A stretch of 40,521 bases of DNA from Victivallales bacterium (GTDB lineage: Bacteria; Verrucomicrobiota; Lentisphaeria; Victivallales; Victivallaceae): the NCBI GenBank assembly GCA_031261965.1, contig JAISIP010000045.1:1-40521 (forward strand), in the 5' to 3' direction. The notes beneath the pieces are model-generated. The model had not been told where the DNA came from and ran no database searches. It saw only the letters and a list, made by a program, of their open reading frames with translations. Position 1 is the first letter of the stretch; each line of letters opens with the position of its first letter. Both the position numbers and the translations under genes were made by a program. Positions 784-40,521 of the stretch are shown piece by piece.

Positions 784-3348
784 ATGAAACCAGGTTATTA
801 TATTATCGGGTTGTTGCTGTGCTGTGGTGGTTTTTTGTTCGGGAAACAGCCGGAGGAGGACATTGAGGTGATCACCGGGGAATGGGTCGAAACCGGCAAC
901 GTCAAAAAACTCTACGACACCCCGCTTGGGGCGGTTTACCGTTTTTCGCTCAGCTCCACATATCTTTGCCAACCTTATTCCTCCGATCTCGTTGTAAAAT
1001 ATCGGGGCAAGATCAATTATAAAAAGGAGAGTTCGAGTGGGGGCAGCCAACAGGAAGGAGTTAAATTCTCTGGCGTGTTGCAGTTCAATTTCGGCAAGAA
1101 ACGGCTGAAAGATAAGCGGTTTGTCGTTATTGACTTCAAGGTTCGGGCGTTCCCGGCGGTGGAAAAAAAGGAAACCGCCGACTTTCAGTTCCAGCTCCTC
1201 AGAAGCGGCGAGGAGAAACTTCACGACCGTTATAAAACAGTCAATGGGATTCTTGATCTGCATAATCGCAAATTGCCATGGTTTAGCACCTCTTTTCGTC
1301 AGCTCTCTGATTTTTGGAAAACGGAAACCAGCGGATATTATTATACTCCCCTATTTGAGCCGTATTCGTATCGAATTATTTTTGATACCCGAACGGGCAA
1401 AAATCTGACTGTGAATAACAATGGACTTAAAATGATTATTACCAAGCCGGAAGAGTTAATCGACAGCCGCTCCCCGATTGAGATAAAAACCTTTGGAATA
1501 GTGGCGCAATCTTTCGGGTCAAAATATCGACGGCAGGTGCTGGAATTTTCGCCGCCCAAGGTGTATCGTTTCAACTCAGCCGAGCTATTGGATGCTTTGC
1601 CGGAGTTGACGGTAAAAGCTTATCCATATGCCGGATACGCCTTGCGCGATTCCAGAAATCGCCCGGCTGCCGCCGAAGATGAGTTCCGGCAAGTAAAAAG
1701 AAACAATAACCCGGATTTGCAGTACGCCTACGCCTTGCGACTGCTCTATGGCGATAATGCGCAACCATCGCAAGCGATCGAACTTTTGGAGCGGGCGGCA
1801 AAAGAAGACCATGTTTTGGCAAATTACCAGCTTGGAGTATGTTACTATCGGGGATATGCCGTGGAGATGGATTACCGCAAGGCGGATCGTTATTTGAAAA
1901 TTGCCGAAAATTATGGCTATACCCCCGCGACTATCTTACGAATGTTACTGATTTGGAATCAGAAGAATCGCCCTCGATTCGCATATAAAAAACCTTGGGC
2001 GGAAAAAATGAAGAGAATGTTTATGTACAATCCTTCTTTTTGTCATGCTCATGACCCTCACGCATATAGAGGGATTTTTACCGGAGTAGGGGATTTGTCT
2101 GAAAGGGAGATTTCACCCAAAAGTTTCGCCAGAGGTGATTGGGCTGCAAAATATTTACATCTTAAAGAGGTTTTCACTGATGCGCGGGAAAGAACACTCA
2201 AAGAATTGGACGAGCTTATTCAATCCGGCTATCGACCGGGAGCGTTGCAACTGGCTATGTTTTTACAATGGAATAGAGCCTCTGACTTTGAGATCGCCGC
2301 AGCACTCAAGCGCGGAGTGGATATGGGCGACCGCGAGACGGAAATTATGTATTTGGAGTGGCAAGCCCGGCTCAAAAAATTGGATGCTTCGGCTTTTACC
2401 CTCTTGAAACAACTCCAATTCGGGTTTTATCCGCAATATCTTTTGCTTGAATTTGCGATGAAGAATCCCGACTTTCCCGGCGTTGCCGAGTTTTTGCAGT
2501 TTAAAAACGACCATGCCGAAGCAAAACGGATTTGGCAAGCGACAGATAAGCCCGAAGCCCGCTATTTGTTGGGTCTGCTGGAGTGGACGGTGGCGTTTCC
2601 TTATTGGAATATGCATGGCGTTATCCCGGTTCAAATCGAAGAAGAATCAATTGAAGATGGGAAAGACAGCCGCCCTGTAACCGAGCTTGACCGGCAACGG
2701 CGATACGAAATGAGGTCAATTCCCGCAGACGTCGGATTTAAGTATTTGAAAGAAGCCGCAAAGCAAGGTGTTCCCAATGCGATGTATCTGATTGCCCGGC
2801 AATATTCCCTGGCGGATTTTCCGATAGGCGATACGATAGATGACGAGGAACGATCAAAAATCGAGGGGCATCTTTTAATGAAACGTGCCGCCGAAGCCGG
2901 GCAGTTGAATGCGCGGTTTGAACTCTTAAAAACGGTAGTGGAGGACTCAACTACCTCTATAAACAAGATACCGCAATATTTGCCGGAAGTTGAGGAGTTT
3001 ATCAAGTTGGATTATTCCCCGGCGTATCTCGTAAAAGCGCGGATTTTGGATAAAATGGGGAGAAAAGATGCCCCCGAGGCATATTTGCGTGCCGCAAGAA
3101 AAGGCGAACGTGAAGCGTGGCGTCTGCTTGCACTTAAAGCCGCTGCGCAAAAACAAATGAAAATCGCCGATGAGTTTTGGAGCGATTATATCCGCGCCGA
3201 CCGGGAGTTCCGCCAACAGGATCGTTACGACGTATTCTACCCGGAAATCAAGATTGATATAAAAGAAAAACCGTGGCAAAAGCTCCTTGATGAGCGTGCC
3301 AAAATCTGGGAATCCAGCCTGAAGCCTGAAAAAATATTTGAAGATTGA
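784..3348 (+). CDS. Exported Sel1/TPR-like repeat protein
   Basis: The 854-residue product starts with a short hydrophobic segment (YYIIGLLLCCGGFLFG) after MKPG, typical of a signal peptide, so it is probably exported or lipid-anchored. The first 300 residues are beta-rich and unrecognised. Helical Sel1-like repeats follow: around residues 315-380 (AIELLERAAKEDHVLANYQLG, then YRKADRYLKIAENYG) and again around 640-830 (KYLKEAAKQGVPNAMYLIAR, LLMKRAAEAGQLNARFELL). Sel1 repeats form solenoids that bind partner proteins. The start is supported by AGAGG five bases upstream. It lies 83 bases after the RHS gene on the same strand and may be transcribed with it. The stop TGA abuts a dispersed repeat element. 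The overall fold is convincing, but the ligand and role are unknown. Confidence 0.8.
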   Translation: MKPGYYIIGLLLCCGGFLFGKQPEEDIEVITGEWVETGNVKKLYDTPLGAVYRFSLSSTYLCQPYSSDLVVKYRGKINYKKESSSGGSQQEGVKFSGVLQFNFGKKRLKDKRFVVIDFKVRAFPAVEKKETADFQFQLLRSGEEKLHDRYKTVNGILDLHNRKLPWFSTSFRQLSDFWKTETSGYYYTPLFEPYSYRIIFDTRTGKNLTVNNNGLKMIITKPEELIDSRSPIEIKTFGIVAQSFGSKYRRQVLEFSPPKVYRFNSAELLDALPELTVKAYPYAGYALRDSRNRPAAAEDEFRQVKRNNNPDLQYAYALRLLYGDNAQPSQAIELLERAAKEDHVLANYQLGVCYYRGYAVEMDYRKADRYLKIAENYGYTPATILRMLLIWNQKNRPRFAYKKPWAEKMKRMFMYNPSFCHAHDPHAYRGIFTGVGDLSEREISPKSFARGDWAAKYLHLKEVFTDARERTLKELDELIQSGYRPGALQLAMFLQWNRASDFEIAAALKRGVDMGDRETEIMYLEWQARLKKLDASAFTLLKQLQFGFYPQYLLLEFAMKNPDFPGVAEFLQFKNDHAEAKRIWQATDKPEARYLLGLLEWTVAFPYWNMHGVIPVQIEEESIEDGKDSRPVTELDRQRRYEMRSIPADVGFKYLKEAAKQGVPNAMYLIARQYSLADFPIGDTIDDEERSKIEGHLLMKRAAEAGQLNARFELLKTVVEDSTTSINKIPQYLPEVEEFIKLDYSPAYLVKARILDKMGRKDAPEAYLRAARKGEREAWRLLALKAAAQKQMKIADEFWSDYIRADREFRQQDRYDVFYPEIKIDIKEKPWQKLLDERAKIWESSLKPEKIFED

Positions 3349-3503
3349 GGACTATCTCTAAAAGCGGAAAAGTTGTCTAAAAATCGCACTTCCAAATTGT
3401 GAATCTGCTGATTTTTGAGATACCCTTGAGCTTAAAAATCACATCACGCATAGAATTGCGAGGCGCGATTTTCTGTCAAACTATCGATTTTCAGAGGTAG
3501 CCT
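3349..3503. repeat. Dispersed TIR element, copy 1 (composite)
   Basis: The segment starts with GGACTATCTCTAAAAG directly after the Sel1-gene stop and ends with TTTTCAGAGGTAGCC, whose last base is part of the recN stop codon. An internal end (TTTTTGAGATACCC, about 3412-3425) suggests two shortened elements side by side: the first in minus orientation (GCACTTCCAAATTGTGAATC), the second showing only the right part. It fills the whole gap between two convergent genes. Confidence 0.75.
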
Positions 3504-6045: not shown

Positions 6046-8309
6046 AGCTGTTTCTCCGCAAGTTTTTTCAATTTAGTTAAGTCGAGTTTGCCGCTGCCGA
6101 GCAACGGAAGACGATCGATTTTGACAAAATCCTCCGCCTTGGGAATCCAAAGATTCGGAAGTTTATCAGCACGCAGCTGTGCGATAATCGCCACCGGGTC
6201 AAAATCATCCGGAGTATAAAATACCACCAACCGTTCACCGCGCTTCGCGTCCGTGCGGCCTGCGACCGCGATTTCGCGTTCGCCGTTACCGCGAATAGTG
6301 GCGATCGCCTGCTCAACAACTTCATGCGGCACCATTTCTCCGCCGATTTTGCTGAATCGTGACGCCCGCCCGGTAATATACACATAGCCGTCGCGGTCAA
6401 TTCGCGCAATATCACCGGTGTTGTAGTAGCCGTTCTGGACGACCCTGGCGGTTTGTTCCGGGTCGTTCAGATAACCTTTCATGACAATTCCGCCTTTAAC
6501 CTGCAAAAGTCCGGGCTGATTCGCGCCGAGTTCCACCCCGGTATAAGGATCGACCGTCCGTACATGAATTCCCGGCAAAGGAATGCCGATACTGCCGGAG
6601 TGATGAGCATGTTTTCCCAGCAGATGAATCTCATTGCACAAATTGACCGTCACAATCGGCGAAAGCTCGGTACAACCGTAACCCTCGACAATCTCCAGCC
6701 CCGTCATCGCCCGAAACTTAGCGGCAAGCTCAAAACTCAATTTCTCCGCCCCGGTAATTACCAGTCGCAACGACTTAAGCTGTTCGGCATTCGCTTTTCG
6801 CATATAGCCTTGCAAAAAGGTCGGAGTAGCTGTGAGTAACGTCACTCCATACTCGTTGATCGCTTTTACCACACCGGTAGCGTCAAGCGGGTTCGGCACA
6901 TAGATCACCGGGGTTCCGGACAGCGCCGGAAACGCAAATTCCACCGTGAAACCGTAAGCGTGAAAGAGCGGCAGATTCCCGGCGATACGATCGCGCTTAG
7001 TCCACAAAATCATCCGCCAAAACGACCAAAGATCGCAATTGATGTTACGGTGGGTAAGTTGAACCGCCTTGGGTTTGCCGGTTGAACCGCTGGAGAACAG
7101 CAGCACCGCCTCCCTGCCGACGTTGAACGCGCTGCGCGGTGCAAGACGGCGCATTAGCATTTTGAACGGCATAAACAGACAAAGCAGCGTGATTAAATAT
7201 TTGTCGTATTTGGTTATCTTCTTTGCCTCATCTTCAAGAATAACCATCTGAGCAGTCTCTTGCCACCCGAGTTTCTCTAAAAATTTGCGGCTGGTCAAAA
7301 TCCGGTCGATCCCGGCACGGGTCGCGGCTTCAAGTGCAACCTCTTCACCTGCGCTGAAGTTTATGATTCCCGGTGTTTTATCCGCAAAAAGCACACCCAT
7401 AATCATTGCAACCATAGTAGTGCAATTGGGCAGCAATACCCCGACGTAACGCGAATTGGTTTCCAGTTTACGTACCCGGCGCGATAAAATCGCACTGCGA
7501 ATGAGCATTGACAAGTTGCCGTATTTCGTCCCGTCCGCATCAAGATAAGTTACGGTAAACGGATGTCTTTTCGCCCGTTTGGCAAACCATATATGCAGCG
7601 GCAACTCACCGGGTTGCGGAGCCGCTTCGGACTCGGCTCCAAGCTCGGAAATCACCTGCCGAAACTCAAACGCCGACAGCGACGGTGAGACCGGGTGTCC
7701 GATTTTTAAGCTGAAATTAATCGGAATCGTGCGTGGCACACGGTATTTGAGCCGTTTTTTGTGTATGGTAAACAATCGCCCCCAGAGCATTCCGATTCGC
7801 ATCGGAATTACCGTCACTTCCACCCCGTTCGGGAGCAATGGCGCCACGCCGGAACGAAAACGCATAAGTCCGCCGTTGCCGGAAATCCCCCCCTCAGGGA
7901 ACAGGCAAAGCACTTCGCCTTTGCGCAACCGGGCGCGAACCCGATGAAAAAATCGCCGCATCGCCTTTGGTTGACTGATCGACGGAACTTGGATAACTCC
8001 AAGATACCAAAAGAGAAACCGGGTCGGCACAAAATCGATAATCTCTTTGCGTATCATAAATTTGACCGGGCGATGCGATGCCGATTGGATCAGCAGCATA
8101 TCGATCAGCGAAACGTGATTTGAAACCAGAAGCACCGGGCCGGAATCCGGGATATTCTCCACTCCGTCCACTCGAAATCGCATAAGCGTATGGCGCAAAA
8201 TCCAGACCGTAAGCTTCATCGAAAGTCTGGGACGCAACACCAAAATCAAGAGGCAAAGAAAAACAATAAAACCGAGTACCGACAGGAGGATTATCGTCAT
8301 ATTATTCAT
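6042..8309 (-). CDS. aas: Acyltransferase/acyl-ACP synthetase fusion (Aas-like)
   Basis: The 755-residue protein joins two enzymes. Residues 1-30 are a membrane segment. Residues 40-225 are a PlsC-type glycerophospholipid acyltransferase with NHVSLID (H65-x4-D70) and FPEGGISG near 135. From about 260 to the end is an AMP-forming acyl-activating domain with the P-loop-like LLFSSGSTGKPKAVQLTHRN, a GYGCTELSP motif and the hinge region YNTGDIARIDRDGYVYITGR. This matches Aas, which reacylates lysophosphatidylethanolamine using fatty acids activated onto ACP. E. coli Aas is about 719 residues. The C-terminal lysine region ends in GSGKLDLTKL. It lies in an operon with a 10-base gap from the MBL hydrolase and a 4-base overlap with the ribokinase. 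Exact acyl acceptor is inferred from family. Confidence 0.88.
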   Translation of the reverse strand: MNNMTIILLSVLGFIVFLCLLILVLRPRLSMKLTVWILRHTLMRFRVDGVENIPDSGPVLLVSNHVSLIDMLLIQSASHRPVKFMIRKEIIDFVPTRFLFWYLGVIQVPSISQPKAMRRFFHRVRARLRKGEVLCLFPEGGISGNGGLMRFRSGVAPLLPNGVEVTVIPMRIGMLWGRLFTIHKKRLKYRVPRTIPINFSLKIGHPVSPSLSAFEFRQVISELGAESEAAPQPGELPLHIWFAKRAKRHPFTVTYLDADGTKYGNLSMLIRSAILSRRVRKLETNSRYVGVLLPNCTTMVAMIMGVLFADKTPGIINFSAGEEVALEAATRAGIDRILTSRKFLEKLGWQETAQMVILEDEAKKITKYDKYLITLLCLFMPFKMLMRRLAPRSAFNVGREAVLLFSSGSTGKPKAVQLTHRNINCDLWSFWRMILWTKRDRIAGNLPLFHAYGFTVEFAFPALSGTPVIYVPNPLDATGVVKAINEYGVTLLTATPTFLQGYMRKANAEQLKSLRLVITGAEKLSFELAAKFRAMTGLEIVEGYGCTELSPIVTVNLCNEIHLLGKHAHHSGSIGIPLPGIHVRTVDPYTGVELGANQPGLLQVKGGIVMKGYLNDPEQTARVVQNGYYNTGDIARIDRDGYVYITGRASRFSKIGGEMVPHEVVEQAIATIRGNGEREIAVAGRTDAKRGERLVVFYTPDDFDPVAIIAQLRADKLPNLWIPKAEDFVKIDRLPLLGSGKLDLTKLKKLAEKQL

Positions 8310-14604: not shown

Positions 14605-14652
14605 GAGTTGTTCCTAAGTTTAATTGCCGGGGCTATAATTGGCGATACCTTT

Positions 14653-14681
14653 AAGGTACACCCGCAGGAGCGGCTTGTCAA
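14653..14681 (-). promoter_or_regulatory. Promoter of the exonuclease gene with palindrome over -10
   Basis: Minus-strand TTGACA (14681-14676) and TACCTT (14658-14653) are 17 bases apart. The -10 lies in a 13-bp palindrome TACCTTTAAGGTA (14646-14658, plus-strand reading), which could be an operator or chance. Confidence 0.5.
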
Positions 14682-14703
14682 TAACGATACCCTAATTTGT
14701 AAA

Positions 14704-14800
14704 GGGTATCTCTAAAAACTCACCTTGAGTTAAAAAATCGATAGAGTCGTAATTTGGAGGTGCGATTTTTAGCCAATCTTCCAGTTTTTAGAGGTAGCCC
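14704..14800 (+). repeat. Dispersed TIR element, copy 3, flanked by 10-bp direct repeats
   Basis: This 97-bp copy has intact ends GGGTATCTCTAAAAACTC and CCAGTTTTTAGAGGTAGCCC, and part of the core (AATTTGGAGGTGCGATTTTT). AATTTGTAAA occurs directly before it (14694-14703) and one base after it (14802-14811), as expected for a target-site duplication. Confidence 0.8.
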
Positions 14801-14811
14801 CAATTTGTAAA

Positions 14812-15261
14812 TGGTTACAGGAACATTATTGTAAAATTCTTTTCACGGAATCAGAACAAAAAAAAGAGTCCGAGGTTTGTTTTTCTTCAGACGCTTAGAG
14901 GAGTAATTATGAAGAGGAGAAATTGCGTATAGGAGCCTGAATAGTACAAACCTCGAACAATACTTAGTATACAATGAAAAAATTTAAAATCAAACTATTT
15001 TTCGTTTTTTTTTAGAAAATTTTTCATTTTTTTTACAAATTTTGCCATTTACAAAAAATCATTACACAATTTTCCAAGACTCCACAAAATTTGGCGTGTT
15101 ATTGGTAAAATGATTTTTTGATATTTTTTTATCAAATATAAGTTTGAGCTGGATACGTTATACAATGAATAATCCGTTTTATCAACATAGAAATTGGTTT
15201 CGATATAAAAAATTTAACAAACCTCCCTTGACAAAGAGATAAAACGAGGATAGTTTACCCC
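14812..15261. other. AT-rich gene-free region upstream of the AraC regulator
   Basis: The stretch holds no convincing gene. It contains a 10-bp inverted pair CGAGGTTTGT (14871-14880) / ACAAACCTCG (14946-14955), and a third ACAAACCTC at 15217-15225. TATACAATGAA occurs twice (14968 and 15159). A 7-bp inverted repeat TTTGATA/TATCAAA lies at 15117-15136. Inside the first inverted pair, GAGGAG precedes a seven-codon ORF MKRRNCV (about 14914-14937). TTGACA at 15228 has no good -10. The likely role is regulation of the AraC gene or a small RNA. Confidence 0.5.
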
Positions 15262-16140: not shown

Positions 16141-16233
16141 CTTGCCCAGATTAGCCATTCACTTGCAGAATCGCATCTCCAAATCATGAATCTGCTAATT
16201 TTCAACACAACCCAGTTTTTAAAGATACCCTTT
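16141..16233 (-). repeat. Dispersed TIR element, copy 4 (left end degraded)
   Basis: The core CGCATCTCCAAATCATGAATC and the right end CCCAGTTTTTAAAGATACCC match the family in minus orientation. The left end is weak (TTGCCCAGATTAGCC). The right end touches the ilvN stop codon. It lies between the convergent AraC and ilvN genes. Confidence 0.65.
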
Positions 16234-18608: not shown

Positions 18609-18616
18609 AATTATGA

Positions 18617-18691
18617 GTGCCTCTAAAAACCGAAAACTCGGTTAAAAATCGCACTTTCAAATTGCGAATATGTCGATCTTTAGAGATACCC
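18617..18691 (-). repeat. Dispersed TIR element, copy 5
   Basis: A 75-bp copy with ends GTGCCTCTAAAAACC and CTTTAGAGATACCC and core CGCACTTTCAAATTGCGAAT in minus orientation. It separates the endonuclease gene from the hepT stop codon. Confidence 0.75.
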
Positions 18692-18698
18692 TATAGAT

Positions 18699-19034
18699 TT
18701 AGAGTTCAGATCGAAGTTGGACAAGGCGCTGATACAGGGGTTCAATATCTTTTACTATAGTTTCCCAAATGATTTCTTCCTCGGTTTTGACGTAATCATG
18801 TGCTACGGTATTGCGCATATTTTTGATCTGTCGCCATGGAATATCAGGATACTTCTGTTTGAGTGCATCTGAAATGGACGCTGCGTCTTCGCCAAGCATG
18901 ATGAATGCAAATTTTACGGCATACTGTTTTTCTATCGATGCGGCATATTCAGTTTCGGAGAGATTTGCCACAAATGTCAGGAGGGCATTGGCATTTTCGA
19001 TCATATGCTCAATGCGTTGTAGATCGCTTAGCAT
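18699..19034 (-). CDS. hepT: HEPN-domain RNase toxin HepT
   Basis: The 111-residue all-helical protein is a DUF86/HepT toxin. The RNase motif RX4HXY is present exactly as R74-NTVA-H79-D-Y81. In studied pairs, HepT cuts RNA, and the MntA partner blocks it by adding AMP units to the motif tyrosine, which is kept here. Its start overlaps the end of mntA by 7 bases, and both are in the usual MntA-then-HepT order. The pair lies between two copies of the dispersed TIR element, with a restriction locus beyond, so it is probably a defence or addiction module. Confidence 0.9.
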   Translation of the reverse strand: MLSDLQRIEHMIENANALLTFVANLSETEYAASIEKQYAVKFAFIMLGEDAASISDALKQKYPDIPWRQIKNMRNTVAHDYVKTEEEIIWETIVKDIEPLYQRLVQLRSEL

Positions 19035-19327
19035 ATTTTTAACATCTCTTTTTGAACATTACAGCTGAATTCATCGTTTTTTTGAAGCCGTCTTAACGAA
19101 ACAACATCAACTTGACAACCTAAAAGATCCGACAAATCAAGCTCCAAGCCGGCATGGTCAAAGAGCGTCGTATGCTCTTTGAATTCGGCGAGGAAATCGA
19201 CATCGCTATCGGGGGTTTCCTCTTTGCGGACGCAGGAGCCGAACACATACATCCTTTTGGCGTTGTGTTTTTTCGCGATACGATGGATTTCGGTTTTTAG
19301 GCTCTGAATTCTTTCAAGCCGGCACAT
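19028..19327 (-). CDS. mntA: MNT-domain nucleotidyltransferase antitoxin MntA
   Basis: The 99-residue protein is a minimal nucleotidyltransferase. The signature FGSCVRKEETPDSDVDFL gives G30-S31 and the metal-binding Asp pair D42/D44. The usual Gly after Arg in GSxxRG is replaced by Lys. It should AMPylate the HepT tyrosine and so neutralise the toxin. GGAG before the ATG supports the start. Full-length repeat copy 6 ends upstream, 23 bases before the start codon. The family call is firm; enzyme activity is inferred from retained residues. Confidence 0.9.
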   Translation of the reverse strand: MCRLERIQSLKTEIHRIAKKHNAKRMYVFGSCVRKEETPDSDVDFLAEFKEHTTLFDHAGLELDLSDLLGCQVDVVSLRRLQKNDEFSCNVQKEMLKIC

Positions 19328-19350
19328 TTCAGTTCTCCACGTTTACTTCA

Positions 19351-19517
19351 GGGTATCTCTAAAAACTCACGTTGCGCTGAAAATTAGCAGATTCACAATT
19401 TGGATGTGTAATTTTGCAAGTATCAGGCTAACATAGAGTTAACCGAATATGTGCAATGTCGCGCATACGAATATGAGCTGCAAATTTCAGCCAAATTTCC
19501 AGTTTTTAGAGGTACCC
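19351..19517 (+). repeat. Dispersed TIR element, copy 6 (full length, 167 bp)
   Basis: This is one of two complete copies: ends GGGTATCTCTAAAAACTC and CCAGTTTTTAGAGGTACCC, core GCAGATTCACAATTTGGATG, and the central GGCTAACATAGAGTTAACC, which can form a small hairpin. By hand alignment it is about 84% identical to copy 8 in inverse orientation. TTCA stands at both flanks (19347-19350 and 19518-19521). Confidence 0.85.
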
Positions 19518-19544
19518 TTCAATATACACTGCTTTTTGCCAAAG

Positions 19545-19898
19545 TCAACACCGCTTGGTCGCCCAACGCCGAAAGCGCGTGGCGATTTGCGATTGGACAC
19601 GATAGCCCAGTGCTATGATCATGTCGAGGTTATAATGGCTGATCTCCCGCTTGACCTGACGTTTCCCTTCGGTTTGAACTAATAAGAATTTCTTATGAGT
19701 TGAAATTTGCGGCAACTCGCCGTCTCTGAGGATTCCGTCAATGTGCATACTAATGTTAGGTTGGGTAGTATCGTAGATTTTGGCGATCTGATTTTGGGTG
19801 AGCCACAAATCCTCATCGGAAAAAAGCACATTGACGTTGGTAATGCCGTTTTCGTCCTGATAAAGGACAATGTTATTCGGTGTGGTATGGTTTTTCAT
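19545..19898 (-). pseudogene. RhuM-family protein, C-terminally truncated
   Basis: The 117 residues match the N-terminal third of RhuM-type virulence-associated proteins, which are normally over 300 residues. Seen are NIVLYQDENGITNVNVLFSD, DLWLTQNQIAKIYDTTQPNI and YNLDMIIALGYRVQSQIATRF, a DNA-binding-like Bro-N/helix-turn-helix segment. The frame stops after RRWATKRC, where relatives continue with the rest of the protein. Repeat copy 6 begins 27 bases beyond the stop. The element's insertion or an associated deletion probably removed the 3' part. RhuM genes are common in defence and integrative islands, next to restriction systems as here. The remnant may still be expressed but is unlikely to be functional. 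Confidence 0.7.
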
Positions 19899-19964: not shown

Positions 19965-20107
19965 AAACGGGCTCTTTGAGGCGGTCTCCCCTACACCGCC
20001 GTCCGTCGTACGGACTTCCGCGTTCCGCATTTACCCAAACGGGCTCTTTGAGGCGGTCGCCCCTACACCGCCGTCCGTCGTACGGACTCCCGCATTTAGC
20101 CAAACGG
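19965..20107. repeat. Tandem intergenic repeat (72 and 65 bp units)
   Basis: A unit starting AAACGGGCTCTTTGAGGCGG is present twice in tandem (19965 and 20037) with a third start at 20102. The second copy lacks a 7-base piece. Each unit holds two inverted repeats, GGCGGT..ACCGCC and GTCCGT-CGT-ACGGAC. GGTCGCCCCTAC-type sequences are widespread as intergenic palindromes in diverse bacteria. No gene is seen here. Confidence 0.8.
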
Positions 20108-26337: not shown

Positions 26338-26347
26338 GGATACCTCT

Positions 26348-26386
26348 AAAAAAACAGCGACTTTTGCAAAATACCAAAAGCCGCTG
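26348..26386. repeat. Hairpin direct repeat, left copy
   Basis: CAGCGACTTTTG and CAAAAGCCGCTG pair with one mismatch around an 8-base loop, after a run of A. The same 39-bp sequence recurs at 26973-27011 with one difference. It can act as a terminator for convergent genes; it ends a few bases from the yoeB stop. Confidence 0.8.
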
Positions 26387-26392
26387 TCAAGG

Positions 26393-26650
26393 TCAGTAGT
26401 GATAGCGAAGCTGGGCAATTATCAACGTGTCACCATCCATTTTGTAAACCATTCGATCTACTTCGGTAATACGACGCGACCACCACGAGCTGAGATTACC
26501 TTTCAGCGGTTCAGGCTTGCCGATCCCCTCAAAAGGAGTGCGAATACAGACTTTTATTAGCTCATTTATTCTTTTGACGATTTTTTTATTCGATGATTGC
26601 CAATAGATATACTCTTCCCAAGCCTGCGGTGAAAATTTAAGATTGGCCAT
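26393..26650 (-). CDS. yoeB: Toxin YoeB/Txe (ribosome-dependent mRNA endonuclease)
   Basis: The 85-residue protein has the exact length and pattern of YoeB: FSPQAWEEYIYWQSSNKK, KPEPLKGNLSSWWSRRI and the end IAQLRYHY. Residues matching the E. coli catalytic set (E46, R65, H83, Y84) are seen at E47, R66, H84 and Y85. YoeB cuts mRNA in the ribosomal A site when freed from YefM. The start overlaps the antitoxin stop by 14 bases, as is common. The whole pair lies inside a TIR-bounded cassette. Confidence 0.95.
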   Translation of the reverse strand: MANLKFSPQAWEEYIYWQSSNKKIVKRINELIKVCIRTPFEGIGKPEPLKGNLSSWWSRRITEVDRMVYKMDGDTLIIAQLRYHY

Positions 26651-26903
26651 TGAGAAGCGACTCCAAATCTTTTTCTATGGCATCACCTTTTTCCAGCGAG
26701 TCAATCGAGGCGATTAGGCGTTTGGCGTTTTTGGGACTACGCAGCAAATAAACGGTTTCCGCCCATGCTTCGTAATCATCCAAGCCCATCATTACCACCG
26801 CATCTTTCTTTTTTCGGATAATCACCGGAATCCTGTTTCTTATCACTTTGTTGATAGTTTCGGACAAATCGGCTCTGGCAGCGGAGTAACTCATAACGTC
26901 CAT
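26637..26903 (-). CDS. yefM: Antitoxin YefM/Phd
   Basis: The track ORF is longer, but the start MDVMSYSAARADLSE (ATG at 26903) is chosen because AAAGGA lies nine bases upstream and the operator lies beyond it; this gives 88 residues. MSYSAARADLSETINKVIRN is the Phd/YefM DNA-binding fold, and the end DYEAWAETVYLLRSPKNAKR with SIDSLEKGDAIEKDL is typical of YefM that wraps YoeB. It neutralises the toxin and represses its own promoter together with it. Confidence 0.93.
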   Translation of the reverse strand: MDVMSYSAARADLSETINKVIRNRIPVIIRKKKDAVVMMGLDDYEAWAETVYLLRSPKNAKRLIASIDSLEKGDAIEKDLESLLNGQS

Positions 26904-26921
26904 AATATATATCCTTTGAGT

Positions 26922-26940
26922 TGTACAATAATAATGTACA
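26922..26940 (-). promoter_or_regulatory. yefM operator with paired TGTACA cores
   Basis: TGTACA occurs at 26922-26927 and 26935-26940, 13 bases apart, directly upstream of the antitoxin RBS. The E. coli yefM-yoeB operator has two palindromes with TGTACA cores about 12 bp apart. A TTGATT-16-TACATT promoter on the minus strand overlaps the distal core. Confidence 0.75.
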
Positions 26941-26972
26941 TCATTGTTGAAGGAAATCAAGATTAAAAAAAC

Positions 26973-27011
26973 AAAAAAACAGCGACTTTTGCAAAATGCC
27001 AAAAGCCGCTG
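26973..27011. repeat. Hairpin direct repeat, right copy
   Basis: Second copy of the 39-bp hairpin repeat, differing by one base in the loop (ATGCC for ATACC). It lies upstream of the yefM promoter and downstream of the pgk stop, so it could also terminate pgk. Confidence 0.8.
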
Positions 27012-27047
27012 ATAGCCAAATTTCCAGTTTTTAGAGGGAGTCAAAAG

Positions 27048-39578: not shown

Positions 39579-39597
39579 TTTTTTTGCCAGGATTTCA

Positions 39598-39785
39598 GGC
39601 TACCTCTAAAAACTGGAAATTTGGCTAAAAATTGCAGCTCACAATTGTATGCGCGGTCTTGCGCGTATCTGGTTAACTCTATGTTAGCCAGATGCTTGCA
39701 AAACCGCACCTCCAAGTTGTGAATCTGCCAATTTTTAACACAACCCAGTTTTTAGAGATACCCTTCAGTTTTTAGGGGGTAGCCT
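39598..39785 (-). repeat. Dispersed TIR element, copy 8 (full length plus extra end)
   Basis: A complete 166-bp copy (39598-39763) in minus orientation: GGCTACCTCTAAAAACTGG, the central GGTTAACTCTATGTTAGCC, core CGCACCTCCAAGTTGTGAAT, and end CCCAGTTTTTAGAGATACCC. TTCA flanks both sides (39594-39597 and 39764-39767). A further solitary end AGTTTTTAGGGGGTAGCC follows and runs into the stop codon of the prepilin-like gene. It starts 20 bases after tRNA-Cys. Confidence 0.85.
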
Positions 39786-40422
39786 AATATCGGTACGCGC
39801 TGCCTCCTGCCCACATATATTTGAGCTCATCTGATGACCCGTAAGAGTTTGCCGGCGTGCACGCAATATTGGTTGATCCGTCGGGATTGCTTATTCCGAC
39901 AATCGTTCCGGGTGGATTGACTTTGCGCGGGGACATCGCCTGAACATGTCCGTCAAGAAAACCAATCGGGGTGGAAGTCAAATGTACATCGCCAAGAGGT
40001 CGATACGCACCGTCGATGCTCCCCGCCAAAGAGGTAAGTCCCTCGGCTCGATCTCCCACAATAATCCGCAGGGAAGGTTTTTTTACCAAAGGTGCATTAA
40101 GTATGCTTGACAAAACAATTGCCCCCTCGGAATATCCGCAAGCGGGATTCCAACCATAGGTTTCGCCCAGTCCGCCGATATAATTCCACCAATCCGTATG
40201 TGCGCCTTGAATACCGCCAATGGTCTTGTTGCTCGACGGGCAACGCAATTTTACTTGAATATAGTTGACGCTTTTACCCTGCAAAGTATATTCCGGGGCG
40301 TATCCCATTGAAACAAACCGGACTTCCCAGCGTATCTTGTCATACAAAAAAGGAGCAGTCATCCCCCGAAAATCACCCATATATGAGGCATTGTAAGAAT
40401 TGAGGCAACCTCTAAAAACCAT
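39784..40422 (-). pseudogene. Prepilin-like H-X9-DG protein, N-terminus lost
   Basis: The 212 residues match the C-terminal part of the type II secretion/prepilin-like proteins abundant in Lentisphaerota and Planctomycetes. The defining motif is DVHLTSTPIGFLDGHVQAM: His, nine residues, then Asp-Gly. Intact relatives begin with a prepilin leader and FTLIELLVV-type helix, which is missing here. The first codons of the ORF (MVFRGCL) are encoded by the terminus of a repeat element at 40404-40434, and no prepilin leader is found further upstream in the window. Insertion or recombination at the element probably removed the start of the gene. The annotated ATG is therefore likely not a natural start. 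Confidence 0.7.
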
Positions 40423-40434
40423 TTTTTAGAGGTT
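40404..40434. repeat. Dispersed TIR element, copy 9 (two ends only)
   Basis: AACCTCTAAAAA and TTTTTTAGAGGTT face each other around a CCA centre with no core between. It is the minimal form of the element, a near-perfect palindrome, and it supplies the start codon region of the truncated prepilin-like gene. Confidence 0.75.
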
Positions 40435-40521
40435 TTGTATTAAACATAGTTCCGTTTTTTTGAATTTTACCAGTTTTTTGTCGCGTTTTTTCTGTTTTAT
40501 ACCCGGTTATTTTGGGGCGAT

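Follow-up and report, generated by a model that had tools for sequence, protein, structure and literature searches.

The window, the whole stretch of 40,521 nucleotides analysed here, corresponds to contig C68 in a metagenome-assembled genome of 2.38 Mb; among named organisms, Victivallis sp. are the closest to this genome. In an AT-rich intergenic region the window carries copy 3, a 96-bp short-form MITE on the plus strand (14704-14799; ends GGGTATCTCTAAAAACT and AGTTTTTAGAGGTAGCC), the boundaries of which were fixed by the family-wide element ends (GGG...GCC). The 10-bp word AATTTGTAAA is present in exact form on both sides, also on the plus strand: the left repeat (14694-14703) abuts the element, as a sequence-only reading of the window had described, and the right repeat (14802-14811) begins two bases (CC, 14800-14801) past the element end, not one base as given in that reading. 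The tetramers abutting copy 3 are TAAA on the left and CCAA on the right, so no 4-bp duplication is visible. When copy 3 is removed at the family-defined ends, the joined flanks read CTAATTTGTAAACCAATTTGTAAA, an imperfect tandem of 12 bp that also accounts for the CC. A third, inverted AATTTGTAAA lies at 15032 in the same intergenic region, which holds two other exact 11-bp repeats; the 10-mer is rare, with eight occurrences in 1.26 Mb, three of them in this region. Copy 3 matches the left and right parts of a full-length copy on contig C69 but lacks the middle, which lies between similar GAGRTGMGATTTT words, and hence looks like an internal-deletion derivative of a full-length MITE. A neighbouring exonuclease gene has a conserved promoter-like sequence (TTGACA-17-TACCTT, minus strand, 14650-14682), also present in the relatives L097 and L098, and copy 3 sits some 20 bp upstream of it.

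On the other side, between copy 3 and an AraC gene, a small RNA candidate about 100 nt long is predicted on the minus strand (at about 14860-14960, within 14854-14965), with a promoter-like TTGATT-16-TATACT, a U-tract and a fold z of -4.2. Its closing helix has 12 pairs, 10 of which show changes on both sides, and 84.5% of cells in both helices are paired compared with 71.0% after shuffling, counts that lean in favour of the helices since these were defined on the fold of the window sequence itself. When the partner strand is slid by one column, pairing collapses to about 50%. The loop, UUUCUCCUCUUCAUAAUUACUCCUC, is near-invariant and pyrimidine-rich, with two CUCCUC words. Of 78 genomes of the family, 51 contain the candidate, nearly always once, and at the places checked it lies upstream of the gene for the 5'-3' exonuclease; among 120 other genomes searched in the class it was found in one, weakly. 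An Rfam search with the candidate gave no match up to E = 1. This conserved candidate small RNA is a more interesting by-product than the 10-bp repeat.

The window contains several further copies of the element. Two are full-length with family ends: one of 167 bp on the plus strand (19351-19517), flanked by TTCA at 19347-19350 and 19518-19521, and one of 166 bp on the minus strand (39598-39763), flanked by TTCA at 39594-39597 and 39764-39767. The TTCA flanks of both had been recorded correctly from the sequence alone. A 77-bp copy (3349-3425, plus strand) has a TTGA duplication (3345-3348 and 3426-3429) and is followed by the right half of another copy, to 3502. A partial copy with one end only lies on the minus strand at 16151-16232, and a diverged 77-bp copy with no clear duplication on the plus strand at 18615-18691. 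Between this diverged copy and the 167-bp copy (18615-19517) sits a HepT/MNT toxin-antitoxin pair; a RhuM-family fragment follows at 19545-19898, and two 60-bp tandem copies (AAACGGGCTCTTTGAGGCGGTC..., 95% identical) lie at 19965-20096. MITE-like ends without a matching 4-bp duplication also flank a toxin-antitoxin module at 26338-27042 (plus strand). Within the MITE-like ends, this module, of the Phd/YefM type, has a 39-bp direct repeat on either side; the two repeats are near-identical and each is hairpin-like.

A dense MITE family with 4-bp target duplications

Element ends with at most two mismatches number 540 in the genome compared with 3 in a reversed control, which corresponds to roughly 270 copies, a density of one element in about every 9 kb, and shows that the terminal inverted repeats are common to many dispersed copies. 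Pairing of outward-facing ends in 1.26 Mb of the same genome gave 163 copies. Nearly all of these are 38-169 bp long and without a transposase gene, with size classes near 167 bp (107 of 163 at 164-170 bp) and 95 bp (18 copies of about this length), besides smaller ones. Eight congeners contain at most one such end each, and genomes of other genera of the family contain 39, 10 and 1. The density and the near-absence from the congeners suggest that the family expanded in a burst specific to this lineage. Where long paired ends enclose a gene, 4-mers match in 6 of 117 pairs, no more than expected by chance, and the candidate on contig C57 for a gene-carrying long element was rejected, as it encloses host genes.

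An exact 4-bp duplication abuts the GGG...CCC ends in 104 of the 163 copies, compared with 9.2 expected when flanks are shuffled between copies; the remaining 59 lack one, and this fixed-length duplication, seen family-wide, is not visible at copy 3. Among the same 163 copies a 5-bp duplication is seen once (0.4 expected), and none of 6 bp or more is found. The duplicated sites match TNNA in 77% of cases, compared with 5.8% of all genome positions. The duplication is retained in 66 of 83 copies with 0-1 terminal mismatches and in 1 of 10 with at least five, the pattern that a footprint undergoing decay should leave. The same length is seen in copies from other genera of the family (4 bp in 15 of 21; 2.5 expected). 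Together, these counts set the family rule: the elements make a 4-bp target duplication, with TNNA preferred. IS5 itself makes a 4-bp duplication and has the target preference YTAR; the present family likewise duplicates 4 bp but prefers TNNA.

The sequence-only reading had left duplication length and target preference open, and rightly so for the length, which the comparison of 163 pairs of flanks sets at 4 bp. Given the enrichment at 4 bp and at no greater length, TTCA at both full-length copies represents genuine duplications and is not merely a preference, although a TNNA preference exists as well.

Probable relation to IS5-family transposons

Several contigs end inside longer elements that bear the MITE terminus. 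One end, A (GGGTATCTCTAAAAACCCCACC...), is found on C48, C70, C72 and C202 and leads to a ribosome-binding site and then ATG GCA AAC GGA CTT TTC GAT (MANGLFDLEFR). The other, B (GGCAACCTCTAAAAACC...), closes C68, C113, C142 and C146 with the same 114-118 bp; in the window it occupies 40404-40521 on the plus strand, where the contig end cuts what is probably a multi-copy autonomous IS. That ends A and B each occur in four identical copies suggests recent activity of a multi-copy IS not spanned by the assembly, of which A and B would be the two ends. On C202 (L208, 1-915), end A and the first transposase codons run into a truncated gene for an FAD-dependent oxidoreductase, with which they seem to form a single open frame.

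In a congener (G001, contig C39), GGGTATCTCTAAAAACC is followed by an ORF of 369 aa that has its first ATG 45 nt in from the terminus, and its leader and the beginning of its coding sequence can be aligned with end A. The encoded protein is an IS5-family transposase (NF033581, E 2.9e-84, 282.8 bits against a cut-off of 140) with the domains PF05598 (DUF772) and PF01609 (DDE). Only one end of this congener IS shows a clear terminus. A DUF772 search of the window's own assembly gave no match; the full transposase gene is absent from the assembly, in which the IS ends appear only at contig breaks. The single clear terminus and the missing full gene both count against the IS5 link. The MITE ends are thus common to an autonomous IS5-family element, both in the genome's own ends A and B and in the congener, and the copies were probably moved by an IS5-family transposase of the kind that the congener carries behind the shared terminus and the MITEs themselves lack.

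Derivation from IS1380-type transposons would explain why transposase fragments of that type adjoin element ends on C35 and C166. However, the remnant on C166 appears to have ends of its own, CCTAATTCCGTGAA...TTCACGGAATTAGG, which are unrelated to the MITE family, and IS1380 was rejected as the parent for this reason; we regard it as barely credible. The C166 remnant (L172, about 7190-8190) is an internally deleted IS1380-type transposon with CCTAATTCCGTGAA and TTCACGGAATTAGG as its ends, in which transposase residues about 8-68 and 321-457 have become adjacent.

MITEs of this kind are known. BrickBuilt and MITE464/PgRS are IS5-family-related MITEs of Porphyromonas gingivalis (PMC4596501). These MITEs and the present family are alike in being short and gene-less, with terminal inverted repeats that match IS5-family elements of the same genome (PMC4596501), whereas their terminal sequences differ and the copies are far more numerous here. 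Duplications of varying length were seen in three of four intact BrickBuilt copies (PMC4596501), in contrast to the constant 4 bp of the present family. The ATR elements of Neisseria meningitidis, in the passage of PMC4596501 that cites them, are attributed to ISNme1 (IS5 family) and are likewise MITEs matched to an IS5 parent by their ends; they number 19 copies, compared with about 270 here, and their terminal sequence is unrelated. The present family is new and dense but of a kind already known; it most likely derives from IS5 and reflects ordinary transposon biology.

Origin of the 10-bp repeat

Copy 3 stands out among the 163 copies: the longest word common to both 14-nt flanks is 10 bp at copy 3 and at most 7 bp at every other copy, and its 10-bp repeat with the 2-nt displacement has no counterpart among them. 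Mismatched flank pairs share a word of at least 10 bp (14-nt windows) in 7 of 26,406 cases, or about 2.7e-4 per copy, so about 0.04 such matches are expected in 163 copies and about 0.07 genome-wide (4-7%). With a local Markov model the figure was 3 in 40,000 (<1e-4). The match is unlikely for one named copy, yet not overwhelming given the size of the family. None of the 17 other copies of the 89-100-bp class has a displaced repeat, which gives no link to short copies. The two nearest species (exonuclease 72% and 71% identical) retain the gene order and can be aligned over the exonuclease promoter and over a conserved block on the right-hand side of copy 3; the insertion point itself is not alignable, and no empty site was obtained from them. 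A role of AATTTGTAAA as a conserved operator was rejected, as TTTGTAAA is missing from the syntenic gap of three relatives.

The explanation that we consider well supported, and very probably correct as a whole, is that of an IS5-mobilised MITE with a 4-bp TNNA rule, beside a 10-bp repeat that is most likely not an insertion footprint. Copy 3 would be a short non-autonomous member of the approximately 270-copy family, an IS5-family DDE transposase would recognise GGGTAYCTCTAAAAACY-type ends and mobilise the MITEs in trans, making 4-bp target duplications preferably at TNNA, and copy 3's own 4-bp duplication would since have been lost or overwritten. The AATTTGTAAA repeat would then have its own, local origin, whether as a chance match in AT-rich DNA, as an imperfect 12-bp tandem CYAATTTGTAAA that the target carried beforehand, or through a small duplication at a later time. 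The claim that the repeat is the footprint of transposition with target duplication stands in so far as the elements are transposable and duplicate their target, and is not supported for the 10-bp repeat itself.

Pure coincidence, the same 10-mer occurring on both sides in AT-rich intergenic DNA, is a reasonable candidate within this explanation, though at somewhat less than even chances. The 0.04-0.07 expected cases leave room for it, and the region is rich in repeats of this kind (the two exact 11-bp repeats and the inverted AATTTGTAAA), but the left repeat standing hard against the element needs a further coincidence, and so rare a 10-mer would have to occur three times here. Alternatively, and still within the preferred explanation, the target may have held an imperfect 12-bp tandem (CTAATTTGTAAA CCAATTTGTAAA) between the units of which copy 3 entered, with the TAAA duplication later lost on one side. 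This is possible but tentative: the joined flanks form exactly such a tandem (11 of 12 bases identical), which explains the extra CC, and an exact 4-bp duplication is missing from 59 of the 163 copies, but the nearest species shows no such tandem in its syntenic gap, though that gap is not alignable. A third origin under the same explanation, the relic of an element-plus-spacer tandem duplication in which one element was then lost, draws on GATACCC (14686-14692), a typical right end of the family, just left of the left repeat; as the last bases of the lost element it would place an element end 1-2 nt before both repeats. Seven bases are weak evidence, given that end-like heptamers occur in about 0.5% of 15-nt windows anyway, and we consider this unlikely.

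The match is improbable for copy 3 taken alone, which keeps a causal tie to the element in play. It would also fit the reading by which the repeat was first noted, a true but aberrant target duplication from the insertion of copy 3, as would its exact 10 bp and the left repeat abutting the element. Against this stand the 4-bp duplication of the family, the lack of any other copy among 163 with at least 6 bp abutting, and a right repeat displaced by two bases foreign to both element and repeat, and we find it distinctly improbable. Taken more broadly, there is a small chance that the repeat reflects an aberrant event specific to this type of element, either an over-long staggered insertion or an element-plus-spacer tandem duplication followed by precise excision; if so, it would reveal a secondary rearrangement pathway of IS5 MITEs.

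Under the preferred explanation, in which the 10-bp repeat arose apart from the insertion, the case illustrates how a striking repeat beside a single copy can be misread when it is not set against many other copies. For a dense MITE family of an uncultured Victivallis relative, the analysis settles the duplication length at 4 bp and points to the IS5 family as the likely parent.
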